A stretch of DNA of 64,000 nt from Candidatus Gastranaerophilales bacterium (GTDB lineage Bacteria > Cyanobacteriota > Vampirovibrionia > Gastranaerophilales > Gastranaerophilaceae): positions 1 to 64,000 of the forward strand of contig CALVEK010000014.1 of the NCBI GenBank assembly GCA_944326555.1, written 5' to 3'. The position numbers and the translations under genes are program-made. Below the pieces are notes generated by a model. The model searched no databases and was not told the origin of the DNA. It saw only the letters and a program-made list of their open reading frames with translations. Below, one piece after another: positions 2,696 to 22,750 of the stretch (the first letter of the stretch is position 1; each line of letters opens with the position of its first letter).

Positions 2696-3934
2696 CTAAA
2701 ACTCTTTTAATAATTTAGTACAATTTGTTTTTACAACAGATATAATATCTTTTCCTATTTTATTTTCAAAGCTATTTATAACACTACCCACAATATCTGG
2801 GAGGATTTCACATTGATTTTTGATAACTTTTTTTAATTGAGTAAAGCTGATATCATTTTCATTTGCTAATTTTTCAAAGTGTCTTAACAAAATCTCATCA
2901 TGTTTATAATGTCCGCCAATTTTCATAGCCATTTTCTTTGACAATTCAGGATAAACTTGTGAACAGAGAATATCGTATGCAGGTGCAAATTTTATTTCTC
3001 CATTGTCATAATGTAGAATAGAAAAATTCTTACCGTGTGCGTCATTATTTCCTATTAAATAATTAAAAATCATTAATTGAATAAACTGATTAATTGTAAC
3101 GGCAGGTTGAGATGTAGTTCTTAAAATTTCAAAACATCTTTTAAAATCAACTCCACCTTCTGTTTGGTATTTATACACACTTGGAATATTAGAAGCCTGA
3201 CAAAAATCTTCTTGGTGAATTCTCTTTATTTTTTTACCAATTATTTCTCTATCGTATCTTTGAATTAAAAAATATTTTGTTTTATTAGCATAACCGATTT
3301 TGACATTAGGAACTTTTATTCCTAGATTTTCAGCAGCTTTTATACATATAAATTCATTTTCAATTGTTTCATTAAATCCGTTTATTGCTGGTTTTATAAT
3401 ATGGCTTGTCGGCACGTTATTTTGGGGAATTCCAATTTGTCCGTCTACAACAATTACGGAGGTTTTATCCTGAGCTCCTGCTAAAGATAATCGCATATCC
3501 TCAATTCCTGTTGCTAAAGGCTTTTGTGGAAGTTCATTTATAAATTTTTCAAGTTCATCATCTGAAAATAGCGTATAATCAATTTCATAAGATTCTTGCA
3601 AGTATTTTGAAGGTGTTTGTTCATCATCACTATCAAAGAATGAAACAGCACCGGCACAATCATAGCCTATTGCGTACAGTATAGAAAAATCATTTTTAGG
3701 ATTAATCCCATATTTTTTTCCAATAGCAATTCTTGTATGTTCGCTTTCAGGTAATAATCCATTAAAAAAGCCTCTACATTGTTTGTTTTCAAAAGGCTCT
3801 TTTTGAATTGGCAAACTTAAAGATAAGATTCTATCAGTATTATTAGAATATCGGAAATTTATACCGCCGTAGCCGTCTTTTTCTAATATTCCGATATGTT
3901 TATCGTTTAAAAATACATTCAAAGAATTATTCAA
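2696..3934 (-). CDS. hipA: type II toxin HipA, serine/threonine kinase
   Basis: This is a full-length 412-aa HipA. The N-terminal subdomain (GYGGINFRYS, residues 21-30; GFFNGLLPES, 55-64) precedes the kinase core. RLSLAGAQDKT holds Ser150, matching the autophosphorylated Ser150 of E. coli HipA, in the ATP-loop region. The catalytic loop GNNDAHGKN (Asp298) and the metal-binding PAYD (Asp321) are intact. HipA kinases inactivate aminoacyl-tRNA synthetases and induce growth arrest unless bound by HipB. The start overlaps the end of hipB by 8 bp, so the pair is translationally coupled. It is unrelated at sequence level to the partial kinase at 1-708 beyond the family motifs. All catalytic residues are present, so I expect an active toxin. 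Confidence 0.92.
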   Translation of the reverse strand: MNNSLNVFLNDKHIGILEKDGYGGINFRYSNNTDRILSLSLPIQKEPFENKQCRGFFNGLLPESEHTRIAIGKKYGINPKNDFSILYAIGYDCAGAVSFFDSDDEQTPSKYLQESYEIDYTLFSDDELEKFINELPQKPLATGIEDMRLSLAGAQDKTSVIVVDGQIGIPQNNVPTSHIIKPAINGFNETIENEFICIKAAENLGIKVPNVKIGYANKTKYFLIQRYDREIIGKKIKRIHQEDFCQASNIPSVYKYQTEGGVDFKRCFEILRTTSQPAVTINQFIQLMIFNYLIGNNDAHGKNFSILHYDNGEIKFAPAYDILCSQVYPELSKKMAMKIGGHYKHDEILLRHFEKLANENDISFTQLKKVIKNQCEILPDIVGSVINSFENKIGKDIISVVKTNCTKLLKEF

Positions 3935-4934: not shown

Positions 4935-6188
4935 TTATTTATATTTTAATATTACATTAGCGGTATGTTCTATTATTTCGTCAGTATGAGCTACAGAAAC
5001 AAACATTGATTCAAATTGTGAAGGCGCAATGTATATTCCATTATTCAACATATAATTGAAATAATTTGCGAATTTATTTACATCACAAGTTGAAACGTCG
5101 TTATAATTTGAAATTGGTGTGTCTGTAAAAAAGACGGATAATAAAGAACCGACTCTTTTTGTTTGAAGTCCAACTGATTTGTACGCATTTTCTAATATTG
5201 AAGCCTTTTTATCAATTTCCAAATAAATCTTAGGATTTTCAATAAGAATTTTTAAAGTTTCAATCCCTGCAGTAACGGCAACAGGGTTGCCCGAAAGAGT
5301 TCCTGCCTGATATACCGGTCCTAGAGGAGCAACACAAGACATAATATCTTTTCTCCCTCCATATACAGCTAAAGGCATCCCTCCCCCTACAATTTTTCCA
5401 AAAGTAGAAAGATCCGGTTCTATTCCATAGTATTCTTGAGCTCCGCCAAGAGCAAGCCTAAAGCCTGTTATGACTTCATCAAAAATTAATAAAGAATTAT
5501 ATTGTTTAGTTATATCTCTTAAAAACTTTAAAAAATCTGGTTTAGGAGGAACAACACCCATATTAGCTGCAACAGGCTCTACAACAATACAAGCTACATC
5601 ATCTCCGTATTGTTCCATAATTTTTCTAACCGAATTTTCATCATTATAATTGGCAAGAAGTGTAAATTTGGAGTAATCTTTAGGAATTCCCGCACTATCA
5701 GGAATTGCATCAGTTAAAACGCCAGAACCCGCCTTCATTAATAATCCGTCTGAATGACCGTGGTAGCAGCCAATAAATTTTATTATTTTTTCTCGTTTTG
5801 TGTATCCTCTTGCAACTCTAACCGCACTCATAACTGCTTCAGTTCCTGAACTTACAAGTCTTAGCATTTGCATTGAAGGAACACACTTTTGTATTAATTC
5901 TGCTAAAATTATTTCTTTTTCGGTAGGAGCTCCAAATGTTAACCCGTTTTCACAAGCCTTTTTTACCGCTTCAATCACTTTAGGATGAGTATGTCCTAAA
6001 ATTCCGGGACCCCAAGAACAAACATAATCAATGTATTTATTTTCGTCAACATCATAAATATACGGACCTTGCGCCTTTTTAACAAAAAATGGAGTTTTCT
6101 TTACTGCATTAAATGCTCTTACTGGGCTATTTACTCCACCCGGCATTTTATTTAGTGCTTTTTTAAAAAGTTCTTCTGATTTTGTCAT
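4935..6188 (-). CDS. hemL: glutamate-1-semialdehyde 2,1-aminomutase
   Basis: The 417-aa protein is a class III PLP aminotransferase. It converts glutamate-1-semialdehyde to 5-aminolevulinate, the last C5-pathway step. Visible marks are the PGGVNSPVRAF N-terminus, SSGTEAVMSAVRVAR (PLP phosphate binding), FDEVITGFR (Asp binding the pyridine nitrogen) and TFGKIVGGGMP with the Schiff-base Lys near residue 260. Length is normal. It is the last gene of the siroheme operon, 20 bp after hemB, with AAAGGAG 5 bp before ATG. Confidence 0.97.
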   Translation of the reverse strand: MTKSEELFKKALNKMPGGVNSPVRAFNAVKKTPFFVKKAQGPYIYDVDENKYIDYVCSWGPGILGHTHPKVIEAVKKACENGLTFGAPTEKEIILAELIQKCVPSMQMLRLVSSGTEAVMSAVRVARGYTKREKIIKFIGCYHGHSDGLLMKAGSGVLTDAIPDSAGIPKDYSKFTLLANYNDENSVRKIMEQYGDDVACIVVEPVAANMGVVPPKPDFLKFLRDITKQYNSLLIFDEVITGFRLALGGAQEYYGIEPDLSTFGKIVGGGMPLAVYGGRKDIMSCVAPLGPVYQAGTLSGNPVAVTAGIETLKILIENPKIYLEIDKKASILENAYKSVGLQTKRVGSLLSVFFTDTPISNYNDVSTCDVNKFANYFNYMLNNGIYIAPSQFESMFVSVAHTDEIIEHTANVILKYK

Positions 6189-6208
6189 AATGCTCCTTTT
6201 TTAGGCTA

Positions 6209-7177
6209 TTATTCACTTAGCCATTTTGCCATTTCTAACGCATGGTATGTAATAATTATTTTTGCCCCTGCTCTTTTCATAGCAATTAGATTTTCTGTTA
6301 CTATTCTTTTTTCATCAATCCAACCTTGCATAGCAGCAGCTTTTACCATTGAATATTCACCGCTTACATTATAAACGGCAAAAGGGATATTGAAAGTAGC
6401 GGCAGCATTTTTTAAAACATCTAAATATGCCAAAGCAGGTTTTACCATAACAATATCTGCTCCTTCTTCAATATCCGCTTCAATTTCTCTTAAGGCTTCT
6501 TTTCCGTTTGAAAAATCCATTTGGTAGCTTCTTCTGTCGCCAAAACAAGGTGCAGAATTTGCCGCATCTCGGAATGGTCCATAATATGCAGATGCAAATT
6601 TGGCGCTGTACGCCATAATCGGAGTGTTTTTAAAACCTTCTGAATCGAGAGCTTTTCTTATTGCACTAATTCTACCATCCATCATATCAGATGGTGCAAC
6701 CATGTCTGCACCTGCTCTTGCAAGACTTACGGCCATTTTTGATAGCAATGGTAATGTTTCGTCGTTTAAAATTTCGGCATCTTTTACCATACCGCAATGA
6801 CCGTGCGATGTATATTCACATAGGCATACATCTGTTATGCATAAGATTTCAGGATAATTAGCTTTTATATATCTGACTGCTCTTTGGGTAATGCCGTTTT
6901 CCGAATATGCTTGAGTTGCAAGTTCGTCTTTATCTTCTATTTTGGGAATTCCAAATAGCATAATACCCGTTATTTTACTTCTTTTAACTTCCTCAAGTAT
7001 TTCAGGGAGTTTGTCAATTGAATATTGATAAATATTTGGCATTGATTTAACAGGCGCTTTTATATTTTCGCCATCTATAACAAAAATCGGGTAAATAAAA
7101 TCCTTTACGCTAAGTCTTGTTTCTTTTACTAAATCTCGTATTATTTCATTTTGTCTTAATCTTCTAAATCTTTTCAT
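6209..7177 (-). CDS. hemB: delta-aminolevulinic acid dehydratase (porphobilinogen synthase)
   Basis: The 322-aa enzyme condenses two 5-aminolevulinate molecules into porphobilinogen. The two substrate Schiff-base lysines are Lys193 in YSAKFASAYYGPF and Lys246 in VMVKPALAYLD. The catalytic-zinc cysteines are present as Cys118, Cys120 and Cys128 in DVCLCEYTSHGHCG, so this is a zinc-type enzyme. Gaps of 9 bp to cobA-hemD and 20 bp to hemL place it inside the operon. Confidence 0.97.
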   Translation of the reverse strand: MKRFRRLRQNEIIRDLVKETRLSVKDFIYPIFVIDGENIKAPVKSMPNIYQYSIDKLPEILEEVKRSKITGIMLFGIPKIEDKDELATQAYSENGITQRAVRYIKANYPEILCITDVCLCEYTSHGHCGMVKDAEILNDETLPLLSKMAVSLARAGADMVAPSDMMDGRISAIRKALDSEGFKNTPIMAYSAKFASAYYGPFRDAANSAPCFGDRRSYQMDFSNGKEALREIEADIEEGADIVMVKPALAYLDVLKNAAATFNIPFAVYNVSGEYSMVKAAAMQGWIDEKRIVTENLIAMKRAGAKIIITYHALEMAKWLSE

Positions 7178-7186
7178 TTTGAATCC

Positions 7187-8707
7187 TTATTTTTCGTTTT
7201 TTTCTAAGCACTCAATTATGCCATCTATATTGTATTTGTCTGCAATCAGAATTTCAGAAACATTGTAATTATTCAAAGCCTGAGCGCATTTTTGACCAAT
7301 ACATACAACTTTTATCTTGTTATCAAAATCTGTATTAAAGTTGTCAAAAAATGTTGTTACACCTTTTGCACTTCCAAACACTAAATAATCTACATCAAAA
7401 GATTTAATGTTTGAAGCTGATATAATGCTTTTTTTCTCAGTATTTTCTTTTAATTCATATAGTTGAAAATCCTGATACTTAATTTTTGCATCATTTAATG
7501 TGTTTATTAATAAGTCGCTACCTTCTTTTGCTCTAAAAATCAAAACCTTTTCATTTGTTTTTAGCTTTAGCAAGAGTTCTTTTGTTAATGTTTCAGAGTC
7601 AAAATTGTTTGGGATTAAGTCAGCATAAAAACCGTATTCTAAAAGTTTGTCTGCTGTTCCTGAGCCAATCACGGCAAATTTTAAATGTGAGAGTAATCTT
7701 ATATCTTTATGTTCTCTTTTTAATTTTAAGAAAAACTGTTCTATACCGTTTTGGCTTGTAAAAACTATCCAGTTAAACTCGCTAAAATCCGGTAACAGCT
7801 CATCACTGCATACAACATCCAAAAAACCCCAGTCTATAACTTTAGCGTTTTTTTGTTCAATTTTTGCACGGAGTTTTTCTACAAAGCTATTTGTTCCTGT
7901 TACAGCTATTTTTAAATCTTTAAAATTTTTATTCTCCAATGTTTGAGATTCTTCAATATTGTTTGTATTGCTTTTTAAATCAAAATTTACACATTCTCCT
8001 ATAACAATAACTATTGGTGCTTTTAAATTAGTACTTTCCGTTTTAATTGTAATATTACCTATGTTTCCCTTAATAGTTGTCTGTTCTTTTGTGCATCCCT
8101 TAGATATAATCGCACAAGGGGTATTTTCATTCATTCCTGCTGCTATAAAGTTATTCATAATTTCTGCAATATGATGATACCCCATTAAAAAGACAATTGT
8201 ACCGCCCAATTTTGTTAACGCTTGGTAATTAATGGGAGTAACATCTTCATCGTTATTAACTCCAACTGATGAGCCTGTTAAAACGGTAAAATTACGACTC
8301 AAATGTCTATGTGTAACAGGGATTCCTGCTAATTCCGGTACGGCAATTGCTGATGAGATTCCTGGAATAACTTCATATTCTATATTTTCTTGTTCTAAAA
8401 TTTGTGCTTCTTCTGAGCCTCTACCAAATACGAACGGATCGCCACCTTTTAAACGGGCAACAGTTTTCCCCTCTTTTGCGTATCGAACAAGAATTTCATT
8501 TATTTTTTCTTGAGGCATTGATTTTTGATTATAGCGTTTGCCAACATATATTTTTTCAACTGTTTGAGAAAGATTATTAATTATCTTTTCATCCACCAAA
8601 GCATCATAAAAGACAACATCAGAGTCTATAAGTTTTTTTAGACCTCTTAGCGTAATTAAATCTGCTTCGCCACAACCTGCACCAATTAAATAAACTTTAC
8701 CTGTCAT
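7187..8707 (-). CDS. cobA-hemD: fused uroporphyrinogen-III C-methyltransferase / uroporphyrinogen-III synthase
   Basis: The 506-aa protein joins two enzymes. Residues 1-245 are the SAM-dependent methyltransferase (GAGCGEADLITLRG at the start, ARLKGGDPFVFGRG near residue 85, PGISSAIAVPELAGIPVTHR), which makes precorrin-2. Residues ~262-506 are a low-similarity but recognisable HemD (VFTSQNGIEQFF, AVIGSGTADKL, VFGSAKGVTTFF), which closes hydroxymethylbilane to uroporphyrinogen III. Such fusions are common in Clostridia and some other anaerobes. Product flow is HemC to HemD to CobA to SirC, so the fusion couples ring closure directly to the siroheme branch. It sits 12 bp after hemC. Confidence 0.95.
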   Translation of the reverse strand: MTGKVYLIGAGCGEADLITLRGLKKLIDSDVVFYDALVDEKIINNLSQTVEKIYVGKRYNQKSMPQEKINEILVRYAKEGKTVARLKGGDPFVFGRGSEEAQILEQENIEYEVIPGISSAIAVPELAGIPVTHRHLSRNFTVLTGSSVGVNNDEDVTPINYQALTKLGGTIVFLMGYHHIAEIMNNFIAAGMNENTPCAIISKGCTKEQTTIKGNIGNITIKTESTNLKAPIVIVIGECVNFDLKSNTNNIEESQTLENKNFKDLKIAVTGTNSFVEKLRAKIEQKNAKVIDWGFLDVVCSDELLPDFSEFNWIVFTSQNGIEQFFLKLKREHKDIRLLSHLKFAVIGSGTADKLLEYGFYADLIPNNFDSETLTKELLLKLKTNEKVLIFRAKEGSDLLINTLNDAKIKYQDFQLYELKENTEKKSIISASNIKSFDVDYLVFGSAKGVTTFFDNFNTDFDNKIKVVCIGQKCAQALNNYNVSEILIADKYNIDGIIECLEKNEK

Positions 8708-8719
8708 TATCTGATTTTC

Positions 8720-9586
8720 CTATGATTTTATTTGTGATATGAGGTTTGGAATATTTTCTAAGATTTTTGAATAATCTCCATTTGTATTAATTTCCTTACC
8801 TTTGTACATTATTGTCAGCTCAACATTGTTTTTATCAGAAAAATTACTGTAGACACCATTAATATCACTACAGTTTACCTGTAGACATTTTAGAACTTTT
8901 CGCTCTAATTTATATTGCCTAAAAGTTTTATCATCATTAATTTGAGCAATTTCATTTTTATACTTAAAATCGTTTTTAGCCTCAACTGCAATTATACCTT
9001 GACATGCGGCAGGTACTATTTTGTCTGTATTAAAAATACGAAAATCAAATTTCTTATTCAAAGTTTCGGTTATTTTAAGTCTGTCTAATCCTGCTTTGGC
9101 CAATATTATTGCATCGTATTCTCCGTTTTCAAGTTTTTTTAATCTCGTATCAATATTCCCTCTAATCATTTTTATTTGAGCATTAGGAAAATATTTTTGC
9201 ATATAAAAAGATCTTCGAGGGCTGCTGGTACCAATAACTATAGGCTCCTTAATATCTTTTGGGGTAACCAATACATCTCTGGCATCAGCTCTGGTCGGTG
9301 TACAGATTATTTCCAGTCCATCTTTTAGCTCTGAAGGTAAATCTTTTGCACTGTGGACAGCTATGTCAATTTTATTTTGAGCAAGAGCATCTTCAAATTC
9401 ATTGATAAAAAGACCTTTGTCTCCAATTTCGCTTAGAGGTTTATCTAAAATCTTATCCCCAACAGTTCGAATAACAACAATTTCTGTTTGTAAATCAGGA
9501 AAATGTTCTTTCAATGACTTTTCAACTATTTGCGTTTGTTCAATTGCAAGTTTGCTGCCTCTTGTTCCAATTCTTATTGTCTGCAT
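8720..9586 (-). CDS. hemC: hydroxymethylbilane synthase (porphobilinogen deaminase)
   Basis: The 288-aa enzyme polymerises four porphobilinogens. It shows IRIGTRGSKLAIEQT at the N-terminus, VHSAKDLPSEL, GTSSPRRSFY and RGNIDTRLKKLENGEYDAI. The dipyrromethane-anchoring cysteine is probably Cys239 in VNCSDINGVY, aligned with the usual GGCQVPIG. Here the two Gly before the Cys and the following Pro are replaced, a diverged but plausible site. Operon member between sirC and cobA-hemD. Confidence 0.96.
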   Translation of the reverse strand: MQTIRIGTRGSKLAIEQTQIVEKSLKEHFPDLQTEIVVIRTVGDKILDKPLSEIGDKGLFINEFEDALAQNKIDIAVHSAKDLPSELKDGLEIICTPTRADARDVLVTPKDIKEPIVIGTSSPRRSFYMQKYFPNAQIKMIRGNIDTRLKKLENGEYDAIILAKAGLDRLKITETLNKKFDFRIFNTDKIVPAACQGIIAVEAKNDFKYKNEIAQINDDKTFRQYKLERKVLKCLQVNCSDINGVYSNFSDKNNVELTIMYKGKEINTNGDYSKILENIPNLISQIKS

Positions 9587-9607
9587 TAAATATCCGTTTC
9601 TTTTTGA

Positions 9608-10252
9608 TTAATTTTTTAAATATATATCATTAATTAAAACTGTTAACTCCGTTTTTAGTTCTTCTAAGCTGAGATTAAAATTGTGCTTTTGATAGTAGTC
9701 TAAAAGTAAGTGAATAATTTTTGCTCGTATATTTTGTTCTTCTATTTTTAGTTTTAATTCTTGTCTTAGTATCGCAATATTTTCAATAATTTCGTCAATG
9801 TTTTCAGGAATATCGTTTTCTATCATGTTTTTTAAACAAGCTGATAGGTAAGGTGCCTTGCCACTTGTTGTGCAACCTAAAACAAAAGAATCTCTTTTTA
9901 TTAATGCAGGAAAAAGAAAAGAACAATTGTCTACATCATCTACAGAATTCACAAATATATTATTATTTTTACAATTTTGAGCGACAAATTCATTTACAGC
10001 CGAGTCATCTGTTGCAGTAATTGCAATACAAGCGTTTTTAATATCATCGATATCAACCAGTTTTTGTTTGTAGGTTAAATTTTTATTTTGTTCTAAAAGC
10101 ATTGCTAAATCTGTACAAATTTTCGGTGCAACAATCGTTATTTTTGCTTCAAAAGGGATGAGTTTAACAATTTTTCTAAACGCTACATTGCCTCCACCGA
10201 CAACCAGTACATTTTTATCTTTTAAATCAATAAATAATGGAAAATATGACAT
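9608..10252 (-). CDS. precorrin-2 dehydrogenase / sirohydrochlorin ferrochelatase (CysG N-terminal/Met8 type)
   Basis: The 214-aa protein has an N-terminal NAD Rossmann fold (LVVGGGNVAFRKI, residues 16-28, preceded by FPLFIDLKDKN), the ATDDSAVNEFVA loop and VNSVDDVDNCSFLFPA. These are features of SirC/YlnF/CysG-N proteins that oxidise precorrin-2 to sirohydrochlorin. The Met8-type catalytic aspartate (ITATDDS) is present, and some family members also insert iron. No separate SirB chelatase is seen in the window, so this protein may perform both last steps; that is inference. Its ATG shares one base with the hemA stop (TAATG), implying coupling. Confidence 0.9.
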   Translation of the reverse strand: MSYFPLFIDLKDKNVLVVGGGNVAFRKIVKLIPFEAKITIVAPKICTDLAMLLEQNKNLTYKQKLVDIDDIKNACIAITATDDSAVNEFVAQNCKNNNIFVNSVDDVDNCSFLFPALIKRDSFVLGCTTSGKAPYLSACLKNMIENDIPENIDEIIENIAILRQELKLKIEEQNIRAKIIHLLLDYYQKHNFNLSLEELKTELTVLINDIYLKN

Positions 10253-11403
10253 TATATTATACCGTTTCCTTCCTTATCTATTGAGTCTACAACATTTTCA
10301 AAAGATTCTGCATCCAGTTTATTTTTTAATTTCAATAAAATCTTTTCTAATGAAAAATCTCTATGTTTCAAATCTTCTGCTTTAATTTTATCTAACGCAT
10401 TATGATAAATTACATTTTTATATGTTTTTTGTAATTCTTGATTCAAAATATTGTGTGCATCACAAACAGCCTTTTCTTTTTTTGAATTATTGTTTTTAAC
10501 TATTTCTTTAAAATAATCTATTGTAATCAGTCTGCAATTTTCAATTTTAGAAATTTCTCTATCAATATCATAGGGTGCAGCTAAATCAATAAAAAGCATT
10601 TTCTTTGACGACTTATTTAAAAGGGTGTCCTTGTAATTTAGCGTATAATGAGGGCTGTTTGTTGCTGAAATTACTACATCTGCATTTTTTAAACAGTCAA
10701 ATCTTTGTGAATAATCTATTACAGAAATTTTATCCGTAAAATTAACCGCATTACCGTGCGCTCTTTGTGTTGCGATAATTTTTATGTTCAAATTTTTACT
10801 TAAAATATTTTTTATAATAGATGAACCAATCTTTCCGCTGGCACCGATTATTAAAACACAAGGCGCACTAACATTATTCTCTTGTATAAAATTTTTAATT
10901 TCACTACAAGCTAAAGTTGCGTATGAAATTGCTGTTTTTGAAATTTCTGTTTGTGTTTTGATTTTTTTTGCACATGACAATGCACTTAGAAAAGAGGTGT
11001 TTAGTTCATATCCTGTTCTCTTTTCTTGTAATGAATCTAAATAGGTTTGCCTAACCTGTGAAAGTATTTCATTTTCACCCAAAATCATAGAATCAAGTCC
11101 GCAAGTTACTTTAAAAATATGCTCAATTGCGCTTTGTTTTTCGTAGTATCTTGCATATTTTCTTATTTCCGTAATAGAAAGATTCACCTTTTTTGATAGC
11201 AAATTCTCAAGAACATCAAATTTACAATTCTCTGCTTCAACGTAAATTTCTGTTCGATTGCAAGTTGTCAAAATAATACATTTTGCATCTGTTATAAATT
11301 CACTTAACTGAGATAAGAAATCTTGCTTTTCTGAATTTGTAAATGCAAATTTATTTCTAATTTCTTCCGGAGCCGTTTTGAAACTTATGCTTATGCATTT
11401 CAA
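10252..11403 (-). CDS. hemA: glutamyl-tRNA reductase
   Basis: The 383-aa enzyme reduces glutamyl-tRNA to glutamate-1-semialdehyde, the first committed C5 step. The active-site Cys48 is in TTCNRTEIYVEAE, followed by GLDSMILGENEILSQVRQ and the NADPH loop IGASGKIGSSII. The start is TTG: AAGGAG lies 9 bp upstream and the TTGA overlap with the reductase stop leaves no better start. The C-terminal dimerisation helix is shorter than in E. coli (418 aa) but present. Having hemA next to the siroheme-dependent reductase suggests pathway entry is co-regulated with the apoenzyme. Confidence 0.96.
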   Translation of the reverse strand: MKCISISFKTAPEEIRNKFAFTNSEKQDFLSQLSEFITDAKCIILTTCNRTEIYVEAENCKFDVLENLLSKKVNLSITEIRKYARYYEKQSAIEHIFKVTCGLDSMILGENEILSQVRQTYLDSLQEKRTGYELNTSFLSALSCAKKIKTQTEISKTAISYATLACSEIKNFIQENNVSAPCVLIIGASGKIGSSIIKNILSKNLNIKIIATQRAHGNAVNFTDKISVIDYSQRFDCLKNADVVISATNSPHYTLNYKDTLLNKSSKKMLFIDLAAPYDIDREISKIENCRLITIDYFKEIVKNNNSKKEKAVCDAHNILNQELQKTYKNVIYHNALDKIKAEDLKHRDFSLEKILLKLKNKLDAESFENVVDSIDKEGNGII

Positions 11404-12959
11404 ATTAAATACTCCTTGATAATGTCTATAAAACGACTTTCATTATCAGTTACCCAATTTTCAAAAGTAGAGTCTGAAGATTGAATTTCTTTTCCTAATT
11501 TTCTCAGCATTTCAGGAATATTGTCAGCTGCAACAGTACCAAGGACTTCGCCAAAACGTTCTTTTCCTTGTATTTCATTACCACCGTAAAAGACATCAAA
11601 AACGTCAGTGAGTACGTTATCTACTTTTTTCTTTCCGCCTTTAAAACCAATTCGTCCTGTTTGATGCGCTGCACATGATGATTGGCAACCTGAAATACAC
11701 AATTTAGGTAACACTCCGTTTTTAAAGTTTTCTTCTTTATCAACATCAATAATTTTTCTCAACAATCCGCTTGAATCAGCAATACCTTGTTGACAAATTG
11801 TTGCCCCAACACAGCTTACAGATTCTTGTAATTCTGTATGAGCATTATTGCTGTTTATTATATCCAAAACTTTATTTGCTTCATCTGCAGTGAGATTAAT
11901 GATGTACATTTCTTCTTTTGTTGAAAGTCTCACTTCAACATCTTCTAAAGATGAAATTAAGTTGTACAAATCCTTTAGTACTTGAACAGATGGATTGCCG
12001 AGAGGAGGATGGTATTTTACTGCATACAAACCATCTTGCTTTTGTTCTATTACATTATTTTCGATTTTTGCAAATTCTCCGTTACCTTGTTTTGTGATTG
12101 AAGTAGTTTCAACACTACATGTCAAATCTTCTGTTTGCTTTAAAGATTCTAAAATAGTGTTAAATTCTGATAAGTAAGTTTCTTCACCAATAGTTTTTGG
12201 CATATATCTTGTTCTTGCTTTAGCTCTGTTATCATAGTTGCCGTGTTTCATAAACATACGAACCATAGTTGCAATGTAATATAAAATATCTTGAGGTTCT
12301 ATATTCTCAGCAGTCTTAACTCCTAATTCCGGATTTACTCCCAAGCCTCCTGCTGTATATAAATCAAATTTACCGTTATCTTTTGCTACAAACCCCATAT
12401 CTCTGTATGTAGCGTGTACTATGTTTTTAGAAGTGTTAGAAAAACCAACTTTTAGTTTTCTTGGCAATTTAATTGTTCCAATCAAATTTAACAAAAAATT
12501 AGAAGCTGCTTTAGCGTATGGTATAACATCAAAAAATTCACCTTTTTCAACACCTGATAAGGGTGAACACAAGACATTTCTTGGGTTATCGCCGCCACCT
12601 CCTCGTGTGATAATATTGGCATCAAATGCTTCTAACATTAAAGCTGGTATTACTTGTGGTTCTAAATTATGAAGTTGTATTGATTGGTTTGTTGTTATAT
12701 GGACATTTTGTATATTGTATTTTTCTATGCTATCTATTAAGAATTTGAATTTTTCAAAATCTAATACCCCGGCAGGAATCCTTAACCTGAGCATACCTGT
12801 TTTGTGCCCGCGTTCAGAGTATGTTCCAAAACCACCTGATATTGATTTGTACTCTGCTATTGATAGTTCACCGTTGTAATATTTTTTGCAAATTTCTGCA
12901 AATTCTTTGATTTCGGTTCTCATATCTTTTTTTTCTTCGCAAGCAAAAGTTGATGTCAT
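11400..12959 (-). CDS. ferredoxin-type sulfite/nitrite reductase, siroheme [4Fe-4S] hemoprotein
   Basis: The 519-aa protein has two half-repeats of the nitrite/sulfite reductase fold. Siroheme-facing basic motifs lie in VHITTNQSIQLHN and TRGGGGDNPRNVLCSP. The siroheme-[4Fe-4S] ligands are CVGATIC (near residue 382) and CISGCQSSC (near 420), the C-x5-C and C-x3-C pattern. The family reduces sulfite to sulfide or nitrite to ammonia with six electrons from ferredoxin. Sequence alone does not settle which, but the neighbouring asr remnant favours sulfite. First gene of the operon that makes its own cofactor; it overlaps hemA by 4 bp. A second in-frame Met at residue 13 is an alternative start. 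Confidence 0.9.
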   Translation of the reverse strand: MTSTFACEEKKDMRTEIKEFAEICKKYYNGELSIAEYKSISGGFGTYSERGHKTGMLRLRIPAGVLDFEKFKFLIDSIEKYNIQNVHITTNQSIQLHNLEPQVIPALMLEAFDANIITRGGGGDNPRNVLCSPLSGVEKGEFFDVIPYAKAASNFLLNLIGTIKLPRKLKVGFSNTSKNIVHATYRDMGFVAKDNGKFDLYTAGGLGVNPELGVKTAENIEPQDILYYIATMVRMFMKHGNYDNRAKARTRYMPKTIGEETYLSEFNTILESLKQTEDLTCSVETTSITKQGNGEFAKIENNVIEQKQDGLYAVKYHPPLGNPSVQVLKDLYNLISSLEDVEVRLSTKEEMYIINLTADEANKVLDIINSNNAHTELQESVSCVGATICQQGIADSSGLLRKIIDVDKEENFKNGVLPKLCISGCQSSCAAHQTGRIGFKGGKKKVDNVLTDVFDVFYGGNEIQGKERFGEVLGTVAADNIPEMLRKLGKEIQSSDSTFENWVTDNESRFIDIIKEYLI

Positions 12960-13112: not shown

Positions 13113-14401
13113 ATGGGTTATAAATTTAATACAGAAAATGCTGATAATCAGTTATTATCACTTTTTGATAAATATGACATATATGCGCCCAAAAGGTTTC
13201 CAAAGCAAGGAAGGTATTCTGATACAGATATAATCAGATATGCAAAAATTAAAAGCCTAAACGAGATAGAGTTTTTCAAAAAAGTGATTATTCTGCAAAA
13301 GAAGTGCTAACACCAATAAATGAAACTCTTTTTTATTTTGTAGAAAATGACTTTAAAGAAAGTTCTGCTCCTCAAAAACCGATTTTGTTGTTTGCCAGAC
13401 CTTGTGATATTAATGCAATTCAAGTACAAAGCAAAATCTATGAAGAAAACGGTGAATTTTTGGATATCTATTTTTCAAGAATTAAAAATAATTTAAAATT
13501 TGTATTGATGGATTGTAACGGCGGTGATGATACTTGCTTTTGTGTAAGTATGGACTCTAACACTACTAATAATTGGTCGATAGCTATTAAACGAGTTGAA
13601 AATGAATATTTGCTATGTGTTAAAGATAACGAGTTTTTACCCTGTTTCGAAAATTGCGAACAAGCTGAATACGAACCCGAATTTGTTCATCAAAACAGTA
13701 TTTCTGTTCATGTTAATGAAATTCCTAACAAAGATGTTTTGAACAAACTAAAACAGCACCCGTTATGGAATGAGTATGATAAAAGATGCATTGCTTGTGG
13801 AAGTTGCACTGTTTGTTGTCCAACTTGTACCTGTTTTACAACAAAAGACATTATTTTCAGTGAAAATCCAAAAGTAGGAGAAAGAAAAAGAGTCTACGCA
13901 TCTTGTCAGATAGAAGGCTTTGACAAAATGGCAGGTCAAAAAGAAATAAGAAATAAAGCGTCAGAAAGAATGCGCTACAAGCTGCTGCATAAATTCCACG
14001 ATTATAAAGAAAGATTTAAGATAAGGCACATGTGTGTTGGCTGTGGTGAGTGCGTAAGAGCCTGTCCGACAAGTGCTTGGACAAGGAAAGAAACACCTTT
14101 TTATCGAGTTATTCTCGGTGGAAGAACAGGTCGCCAAACTCCACGAGCAGGTAAAATGTTTTTAAACTGGGCAACAGAAGATGTTATTTTAAACACACTA
14201 AAAAATTGGCAAAAATTTTCAGCGTACGTAATGGATAACAAGCCTGAATACCTTCATGGCGGACATTTAATAGATAGAGCAGGATACAAAAAATTTAAGG
14301 AAATTATTTTAGATGGTGTAAAGTTAAATCCTGAATGTTTGGTTGCCGAAAATATTTTTTGGAATGAAACAGAGTATAGATCAAATTTTAATGTTAAATA
14401 A
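13113..14401 (+). pseudogene. asrA-asrC fusion remnant of anaerobic sulfite reductase, with frameshift
   Basis: The 5' part is anaerobic sulfite reductase subunit A: an N-terminal segment to about 13277 in one frame (KRFPKQGRYSDTDIIRY). After the A6 tract 13278-13283 the frame moves by -1 and continues as SDYSAKEVLTPINETLFYF, LLFARPCDINAIQ, then a first ferredoxin motif CIACGSCTVCCPTCTC near 13786. At the second ferredoxin motif (14030-14065, CVGCGECVRACP) the sequence stops matching AsrA. It becomes the C-terminus of AsrC: TSAW, GGRTGRQTPRAGK, FLNWATEDVI, YLHGGHLIDRAGY, GVKLNPECLVAE. The AsrA tail, all of AsrB and the siroheme-binding part of AsrC are absent. SD is GGAG 7 bp before ATG. From the ATG-less codon at 13304 on, 365 codons are intact. 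Confidence 0.85.
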
Positions 14402-21883: not shown

Positions 21884-22750
21884 TTATCGCAAAAAATTTG
21901 TAACCAACCTTTTTATTTTGCAAATAAAACAAGAATTGTTTTCTTTTAGTTTAGTAATCTCGTTGATTTTATATTGTTCGGGCAATGGTACTCTTTGATA
22001 CTTAACATCAGGAATTCCCAAAAGCATTACATAAACAGGTTTGTATCCGTCAGGGATATCCAAAGATTCACAAAGCTCCGGGTATAGCTTTAAGCAAGCC
22101 TGAGCAAAACCACACCAACAAGTACCTAATCCCAAGTGCTGTGCATATAGTTCAATATAGCTGAGTGCAATTATCGGATCTACATTTGCACAAGGCGCTG
22201 TAATAGATGAAGAAACTATAATCATGTGAGGTGCTCCCCTAAAAATAATATCCTCACCATTAATAAATGCATCTTTGTATTTTGAAAATTTATTAATGAT
22301 TGGCGACAAAAATTTGTAAGACAAACTTTTCAAAAGCATTTTTCTTACTCTCTCTCTTATTTCATCCATTGCAGATTTACTTTCTACAAGTGTAAAATGT
22401 AGGGAGTGTGAGTTACATCCTGTTGGAATATAAGGAAACATTGCTTTTAGATTTTTCCATAATTGGTGTGGTATTTCTTCATCCTTATATTGCCTTATGC
22501 TACGTCTTGATTTTATGAGTTGAAGAATATCATTGTATTCAACATTGCTTGATTCTGTAGGCTTTTTCCCATCAATTGAAATAGCTCCTGTGGGACAAAT
22601 GGAAAAACAATGTTGGCAAGATATGCATCTGTTTGCATCTTGCATATAAGGGTAATTTTCATTGTCAAATTCCAAACAACCTGTAACACAATCTTTTATG
22701 CATAATCCGCAGTTTATACATTTATCTTTATCAAAAATAATTTTATTCAT
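21884..22750 (-). CDS. ferredoxin-nitroreductase fusion
   Basis: The 288-aa protein has an N-terminal 2[4Fe-4S] ferredoxin (CINCGLCIKDC near residue 11; CISCQHCFSICP near 42) fused to an FMN nitroreductase domain. That domain begins RRSIRQYKDEEIP at ~83, with PTGCNSH and GLGTCWCGFAQ. Related fusions in anaerobes reduce nitroaromatics or unknown small molecules with ferredoxin electrons. The substrate is unknown. The C-terminus ends CFICKIKR with two extra Cys. AGGA precedes ATG. It converges with the giant wall-protein gene. Confidence 0.88.
   Translation of the reverse strand: MNKIIFDKDKCINCGLCIKDCVTGCLEFDNENYPYMQDANRCISCQHCFSICPTGAISIDGKKPTESSNVEYNDILQLIKSRRSIRQYKDEEIPHQLWKNLKAMFPYIPTGCNSHSLHFTLVESKSAMDEIRERVRKMLLKSLSYKFLSPIINKFSKYKDAFINGEDIIFRGAPHMIIVSSSITAPCANVDPIIALSYIELYAQHLGLGTCWCGFAQACLKLYPELCESLDIPDGYKPVYVMLLGIPDVKYQRVPLPEQYKINEITKLKENNSCFICKIKRLVTNFLR

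Follow-up and report, generated by a model that had tools for sequence, protein, structure and literature searches.

Organization of the locus

The window, a stretch of 64,000 nucleotides, contains a siroheme gene island with remnants of asrA and asrC at its edge. The features of the island are as follows.

4935-11403, reverse strand: the island's siroheme and tetrapyrrole genes, namely hemL, hemB, cobA-hemD, hemC, a cysG-N-like gene (sirC) and hemA.
11400-12959, reverse strand: NirA-like siroheme sulfite/nitrite reductase, intact and divergent, 153 bp from the asrA remnant (NIR_SIR and NIR_SIR_ferr profiles).
13113-13310, forward strand: first 65 codons of the asrA remnant, read in the frame of its original start (ATG 13113), with a TGGAG ribosome-binding-like site upstream and the stop codon at 13308-13310.
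13270-13285, forward strand: tract of a single-nucleotide frameshift, a T run followed by an A run (alignment with the intact G031 and with G017, G001 and G150).
13277-14032, forward strand: remainder of asrA, read in the frame that follows the frameshift, where GTG 13304 is the earliest candidate start (profile and protein matches).
13784-14071, forward strand: Fer4_22 match crossing the junction (profile search).
14033-14046, forward strand: deletion junction inside the CVGCG codons, a short repeat of asrA and asrC (alignment with relatives).
14047-14401, forward strand: terminal part of asrC, beginning at its final ferredoxin motif and including the stop codon; the cysteines that bind siroheme are absent (profile and alignment with relatives).

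Read by eye, two frames resembling HipA-type kinases (1-708 and 2696-3934) lie beside the hem island, and a close relative of the first, with similar C-terminal residues, precedes the island remnant of G150 (L022, 1194-2297). Elsewhere in the window, 21884-22750 appears by eye to encode a protein with a nitroreductase-like domain after two ferredoxin motifs.

An asrA-asrC hybrid frame formed by deletion

The hybrid sequence is real. Within 13277-14401 the translation is AsrA-like up to a CVGCG motif and continues beyond it as the C-terminus of AsrC. The frame 13253-14398 has no stop codon throughout, and its profile matches divide at this motif, as the original prediction had proposed, with the AsrA part covering positions 56-315 of 334 in TIGR02910 (E 2e-92) and the AsrC part positions 197-314 of 314 in TIGR02912 (E 4.8e-37). 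Alignment with asrA and asrC of the relatives places the changeover within the CVGCG codons, where 14033-14046 can be aligned to both genes, and the residues at the junction are RFKIRHMCVGCGECVR. The hybrid retains the ferredoxin-type cysteine motifs of AsrA (Fer4_22, PF17179, 96.6 bits against a cut-off of 27), the last of them being the asrC copy. It falls short of a full-length AsrA in one frame, scoring 310 bits against the curated TIGR02910 cut-off of 323.15, and scores 127.6 against the TIGR02912 cut-off of 324.1. The siroheme/4Fe-4S cysteines of AsrC (CX5C and CX3C) are absent; the corresponding motifs, CIGNYHC (residue 123) and GCPNDC (residue 160) in G031 numbering, both lie inside the deleted part.

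The window thus holds no contiguous asrA-asrB-asrC operon: asrB is absent and both asrA and asrC are truncated. The claimed absence of asrB and of the AsrC siroheme domain extends to the whole genome (G000; 2.08 Mb, 45 contigs, 99.6% complete). No match to asrB was found there at E<=1, nor a second asrA copy at the Fer4_22 level, and searches for the siroheme part of asrC returned only weak matches to the NirA-like gene and other proteins, none of them full.

Relative to intact operons, about 1.6 kb is absent between two short CVGCG-encoding repeats of asrA and asrC. Measured between equivalent points, the missing length is 1,608 bp in G001 and 1,611 bp in G031; both are multiples of three, so asrA and asrC are joined in frame. 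Compared with the 14-bp stretch of the window, the two repeats of G001 show 1 and 2 mismatches. Recombination between the CxGCG-coding motifs of the two genes, suggested from the window alone, is supported by the intact syntenic operons of relatives.

A short-read assembler could also have joined asrA to asrC at the shared repeat and, with an added base-call error, hidden an operon that is intact in the cell. The assembly's 45 contigs, the metagenomic origin of the nameable relatives and the position of the junction in a 14-bp stretch common to both genes would all allow this. However, an imperfect repeat of 14 bp is shorter than usual assembly k-mers, a nearly complete genome yields no asrB elsewhere, and independent genomes show other deletions and frameshifts of the same operon. 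We regard misassembly as highly improbable.

A frameshift separates the asrA start from the hybrid frame

The region 13113-14401 had been described as one gene. Instead, the frame of ATG 13113 stops at 13310, and the remainder is reached only across a frameshift that the original prediction did not see and that emerged from alignment with relatives. One nucleotide has been lost at about 13270-13285, near codon 55 of asrA, so that RYSDTD and TPINETLFYF are read in different frames. ATG 13113 aligns with the asrA start in all relatives, and the residues encoded by 13113-13310 match AsrA residues 1-70 of G031 at 61%. The deletion and the frameshift together have removed asrB, two thirds of asrC and the part of asrA that encodes the C-terminus, and have left the asrA start out of frame. 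From GTG 13304 a frame of 365 aa is still uninterrupted across the junction. No good ribosome-binding site precedes this GTG, and the upstream 65-codon frame overlaps it; the stop codon of that frame, at 13308-13310, lies 2 nt beyond the GTG (13304-13306).

The operon is broken in most relatives that carry it

We compared the locus with genomes of the same family, which are Candidatus Gastranaerophilales metagenome-assembled genomes. asrA is present in 3/23 genus genomes and in 8/383 of the family genomes sampled. G031 and G298 carry intact asrA (345 codons), asrB (267 codons) and asrC with the NirA-like gene divergent at 177 bp, and their order hemA, sirC, hemC, cobA-hemD, hemB (and hemL, where the stretch extends that far) is that of the window. 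The G031 products score above all three NCBIfam Asr cut-offs.

The operon is broken in seven further Gastranaerophilales genomes. In G001, asrA carries a +1 indel and a TGA, while in G150 it carries a +1 indel, a TAA and a TGA; asrB and asrC are open in both. G150 has also lost hemB through nirA, and hemL adjoins asrA. In G017, asrA has a -1 indel and a TGA, and a deletion has produced an in-frame fusion of asrB with the end of asrC. The 5' part of asrA is gone from G207 and G366, where about codon 225 is joined to the last asrC codons. A frameshifted asrC lies beside a truncated hemL in G216, and in G189 the last 67 asrC codons adjoin the 3' end of hemB. The asrA-asrC hybrid of the window, a junction that the original prediction had proposed to look for in related genomes, occurs in none of the other loci recovered. 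One candidate carrier, L060 (query 235-382 matched), was rejected as a damaged ordinary asrC.

Several further observations concern these loci. In G150 (L022, 4587-7495) and G001 (L019), asrA has several lesions beside open asrB and asrC, as if asrA were lost first. G001 alone has an insertion of ~180 bp with inverted-repeat pieces, which separates the promoter region from the asrA start (L019, reverse strand, about 5130-5325); Rfam gave no match in the asr region of G001, including this insertion, or in that of the window. A 14.8-kb stretch with the whole hem-nirA-asr remnant island is shared at 98.9% identity by G207 (L068) and G366 (L069), which are placed in different genera; the stretch may have passed recently from one genus to the other, or a contig may have been assigned to the wrong bin. 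In G001 and G017 the TGA codons stand at Cys positions, but selenocysteine or stop-codon reassignment was rejected: frameshifts occur in the same genes, and G150 has a TAA.

The four single-nucleotide indels (in the window genome, G001, G017 and G150) are all different, yet all cluster in asrA codons 54-76. They sit in short homopolymer-rich tracts, and similar homopolymers are common elsewhere in the operon. Such a placement would suit a phase-variation switch or a programmed frameshift turning the locus on and off. However, the tracts measure just 5-8 nt, many others of equal length in the operon are undamaged, asrA is also interrupted by in-frame stops in three of the four genomes, and the window has no classical slippery heptamer in the right frame. 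This makes a switch of either kind extremely improbable.

As a control, asr loci from Lachnospiraceae, Oscillospiraceae and other groups were inspected, and about 13/16 have no stop or frameshift in the covered part, compared with 2/9 distinct Gastranaerophilales cases that are intact (Fisher p about 0.01, a rough value as retrieval was non-random). The control loci are also mostly metagenome assemblies, and the lesions are therefore not a general property of such assemblies. Among other groups, the unrelated named strain Anaerostipes hominis BG01 (L067, 3467-4282) has a degenerate asr remnant comprising the asrB end and parts of asrC.

Selection on the remnant

Between the window and G001, dN/dS (Nei-Gojobori) is 0.046 for AsrA 62-306 and 0.031 for the AsrC tail, and the neighbouring NirA, HemA, SirC and HemC give 0.073-0.164. 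We assigned changes to branches using G031, G298 and G150. After the frameshift, the window branch has 10 nonsynonymous and 23 synonymous changes over both halves, and the G001/G017 side 5 and 22, which are small numbers. The piece before the frameshift has 3 and 5 on the window branch and 3 and 4 on the sister branch. Neutral drift over the whole branch is expected to give roughly three nonsynonymous changes per synonymous change. Thus, either the lesions arose late compared with the divergence from G001 or selection still acts on the product; dN/dS around the junction, a comparison suggested beforehand, is low on both sides and fits both. The absence of a replacement excess in the cut-off N-terminal piece favours young lesions.

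These values bear on whether the hybrid could be a functional ferredoxin-type protein that carries electrons for the divergent NirA-like reductase, with translation starting at GTG 13304 or coupled to the overlapping 65-codon frame. Its 365-codon frame is open, both ferredoxin motifs are intact, dN/dS is low, and a stop codon 2 nt past the GTG could permit re-initiation. However, the hybrid is missing roughly the first 60 residues of AsrA, the GTG lacks a good ribosome-binding site, and the pattern in the N-terminal piece makes the frameshift look young rather than part of a settled gene structure. Moreover, the hybrid is absent from all other loci recovered, and G298 and G031 have the NirA-like enzyme alongside a normal AsrABC. 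A functional carrier therefore seems very unlikely, and so does its more specific form, a deletion scar reused as redox partner of the NirA-like reductase after re-initiation at GTG 13304.

A probable pseudogene scar in an eroding island

We propose that the feature is very probably a recent pseudogene scar of the asrABC operon for NADH-linked anaerobic sulfite reductase, left by the 1.6-kb deletion and the loss of one nucleotide in asrA. Both are disabling lesions relative to the intact orthologues of G031 and G298. The open 365-codon frame and the low dN/dS on both sides, like that of intact neighbours, are the counterpoint to this reading. On this reading the locus would represent ordinary gene loss, not a new protein. 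Of the two fates originally envisaged for the fused sequence, a fresh remnant is the better one; recruitment for electron transfer is unsupported, because of the frameshift near codon 55, the independent breaks in most operon-bearing relatives and the lack of a shared hybrid.

Across the Gastranaerophilales, the island is decaying piecemeal. The 3' end of asrC is left in the window genome, G017, G207/G366, G216 and G189, and is kept by position, at the distal, outer edge of the island. Retention for function was rejected because this end is the distal edge and the other edge (hemL/hemB) is also left in G216 and G189.

The divergent NirA-like arrangement recurs in G001, G017, G031, G298, G207 and G366. 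asrA/asrC and the NirA-like reductase occur together in the same 3/23 genus genomes, and the NirA gene alone is intact in all three. Among the 383 family genomes sampled, 17 have a NirA-like gene, which is broken in G126 and G282. AsrABC and NirA-like enzymes both use siroheme and have overlapping substrates, and our best guess is that redundancy lies behind the loss. With a NirA-like enzyme present, which may be able to take over its reaction, AsrABC would become redundant and could then be lost through homopolymer indels, nonsense changes and short-repeat deletions. However, redundancy fails to explain G150, where hemB to nirA are gone at the locus and asrB and asrC are open, and loss of the whole pathway through dispensability is for this reason the more general reading.

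The locus illustrates that an apparently designed hybrid gene can be what a deletion leaves behind. Within the Gastranaerophilales, the loci range from an intact operon to its last remnant and document how gut bacteria lose a sulfite reductase step by step, and surveys that score asrA or asrC matches as sulfide-producing capacity would include broken copies. In the literature searched, we found nothing linking Gastranaerophilales or Melainabacteria to asrABC.

Comparison with known systems

The intact relatives G031 and G298 have regular asrA-asrB-asrC operons, as known for AsrABC of Salmonella and Clostridia (TIGR02910, TIGR02911 and TIGR02912). The window retains recognisable asrA and asrC parts but differs in the loss of asrB, of the asrC portion with both siroheme motifs and of the asrA C-terminus, and in a start that is out of frame.

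The product of 11400-12959 shares the two-repeat sulfite/nitrite reductase architecture of the NirA family but does not reach the curated cut-off of any NCBIfam NirA/CysI model in the profile search, and its substrate may be sulfite or nitrite. In Acididesulfobacillus acetoxydans, a NirA homologue and AsrABC have both been proposed for the same nitrite reduction (PMC10949509), a pairing that fits redundancy in the window genome.

The best PDB match of AsrC is 7np8. The F420-dependent sulfite reductase Fsr is a known, real and natural fusion of FrhB-like and AsrC-like parts that includes the AsrC-like siroheme domain (PMC11237513). Whereas Fsr keeps the siroheme domain in one continuous gene, the hybrid of the window has lost this domain and is frameshifted.
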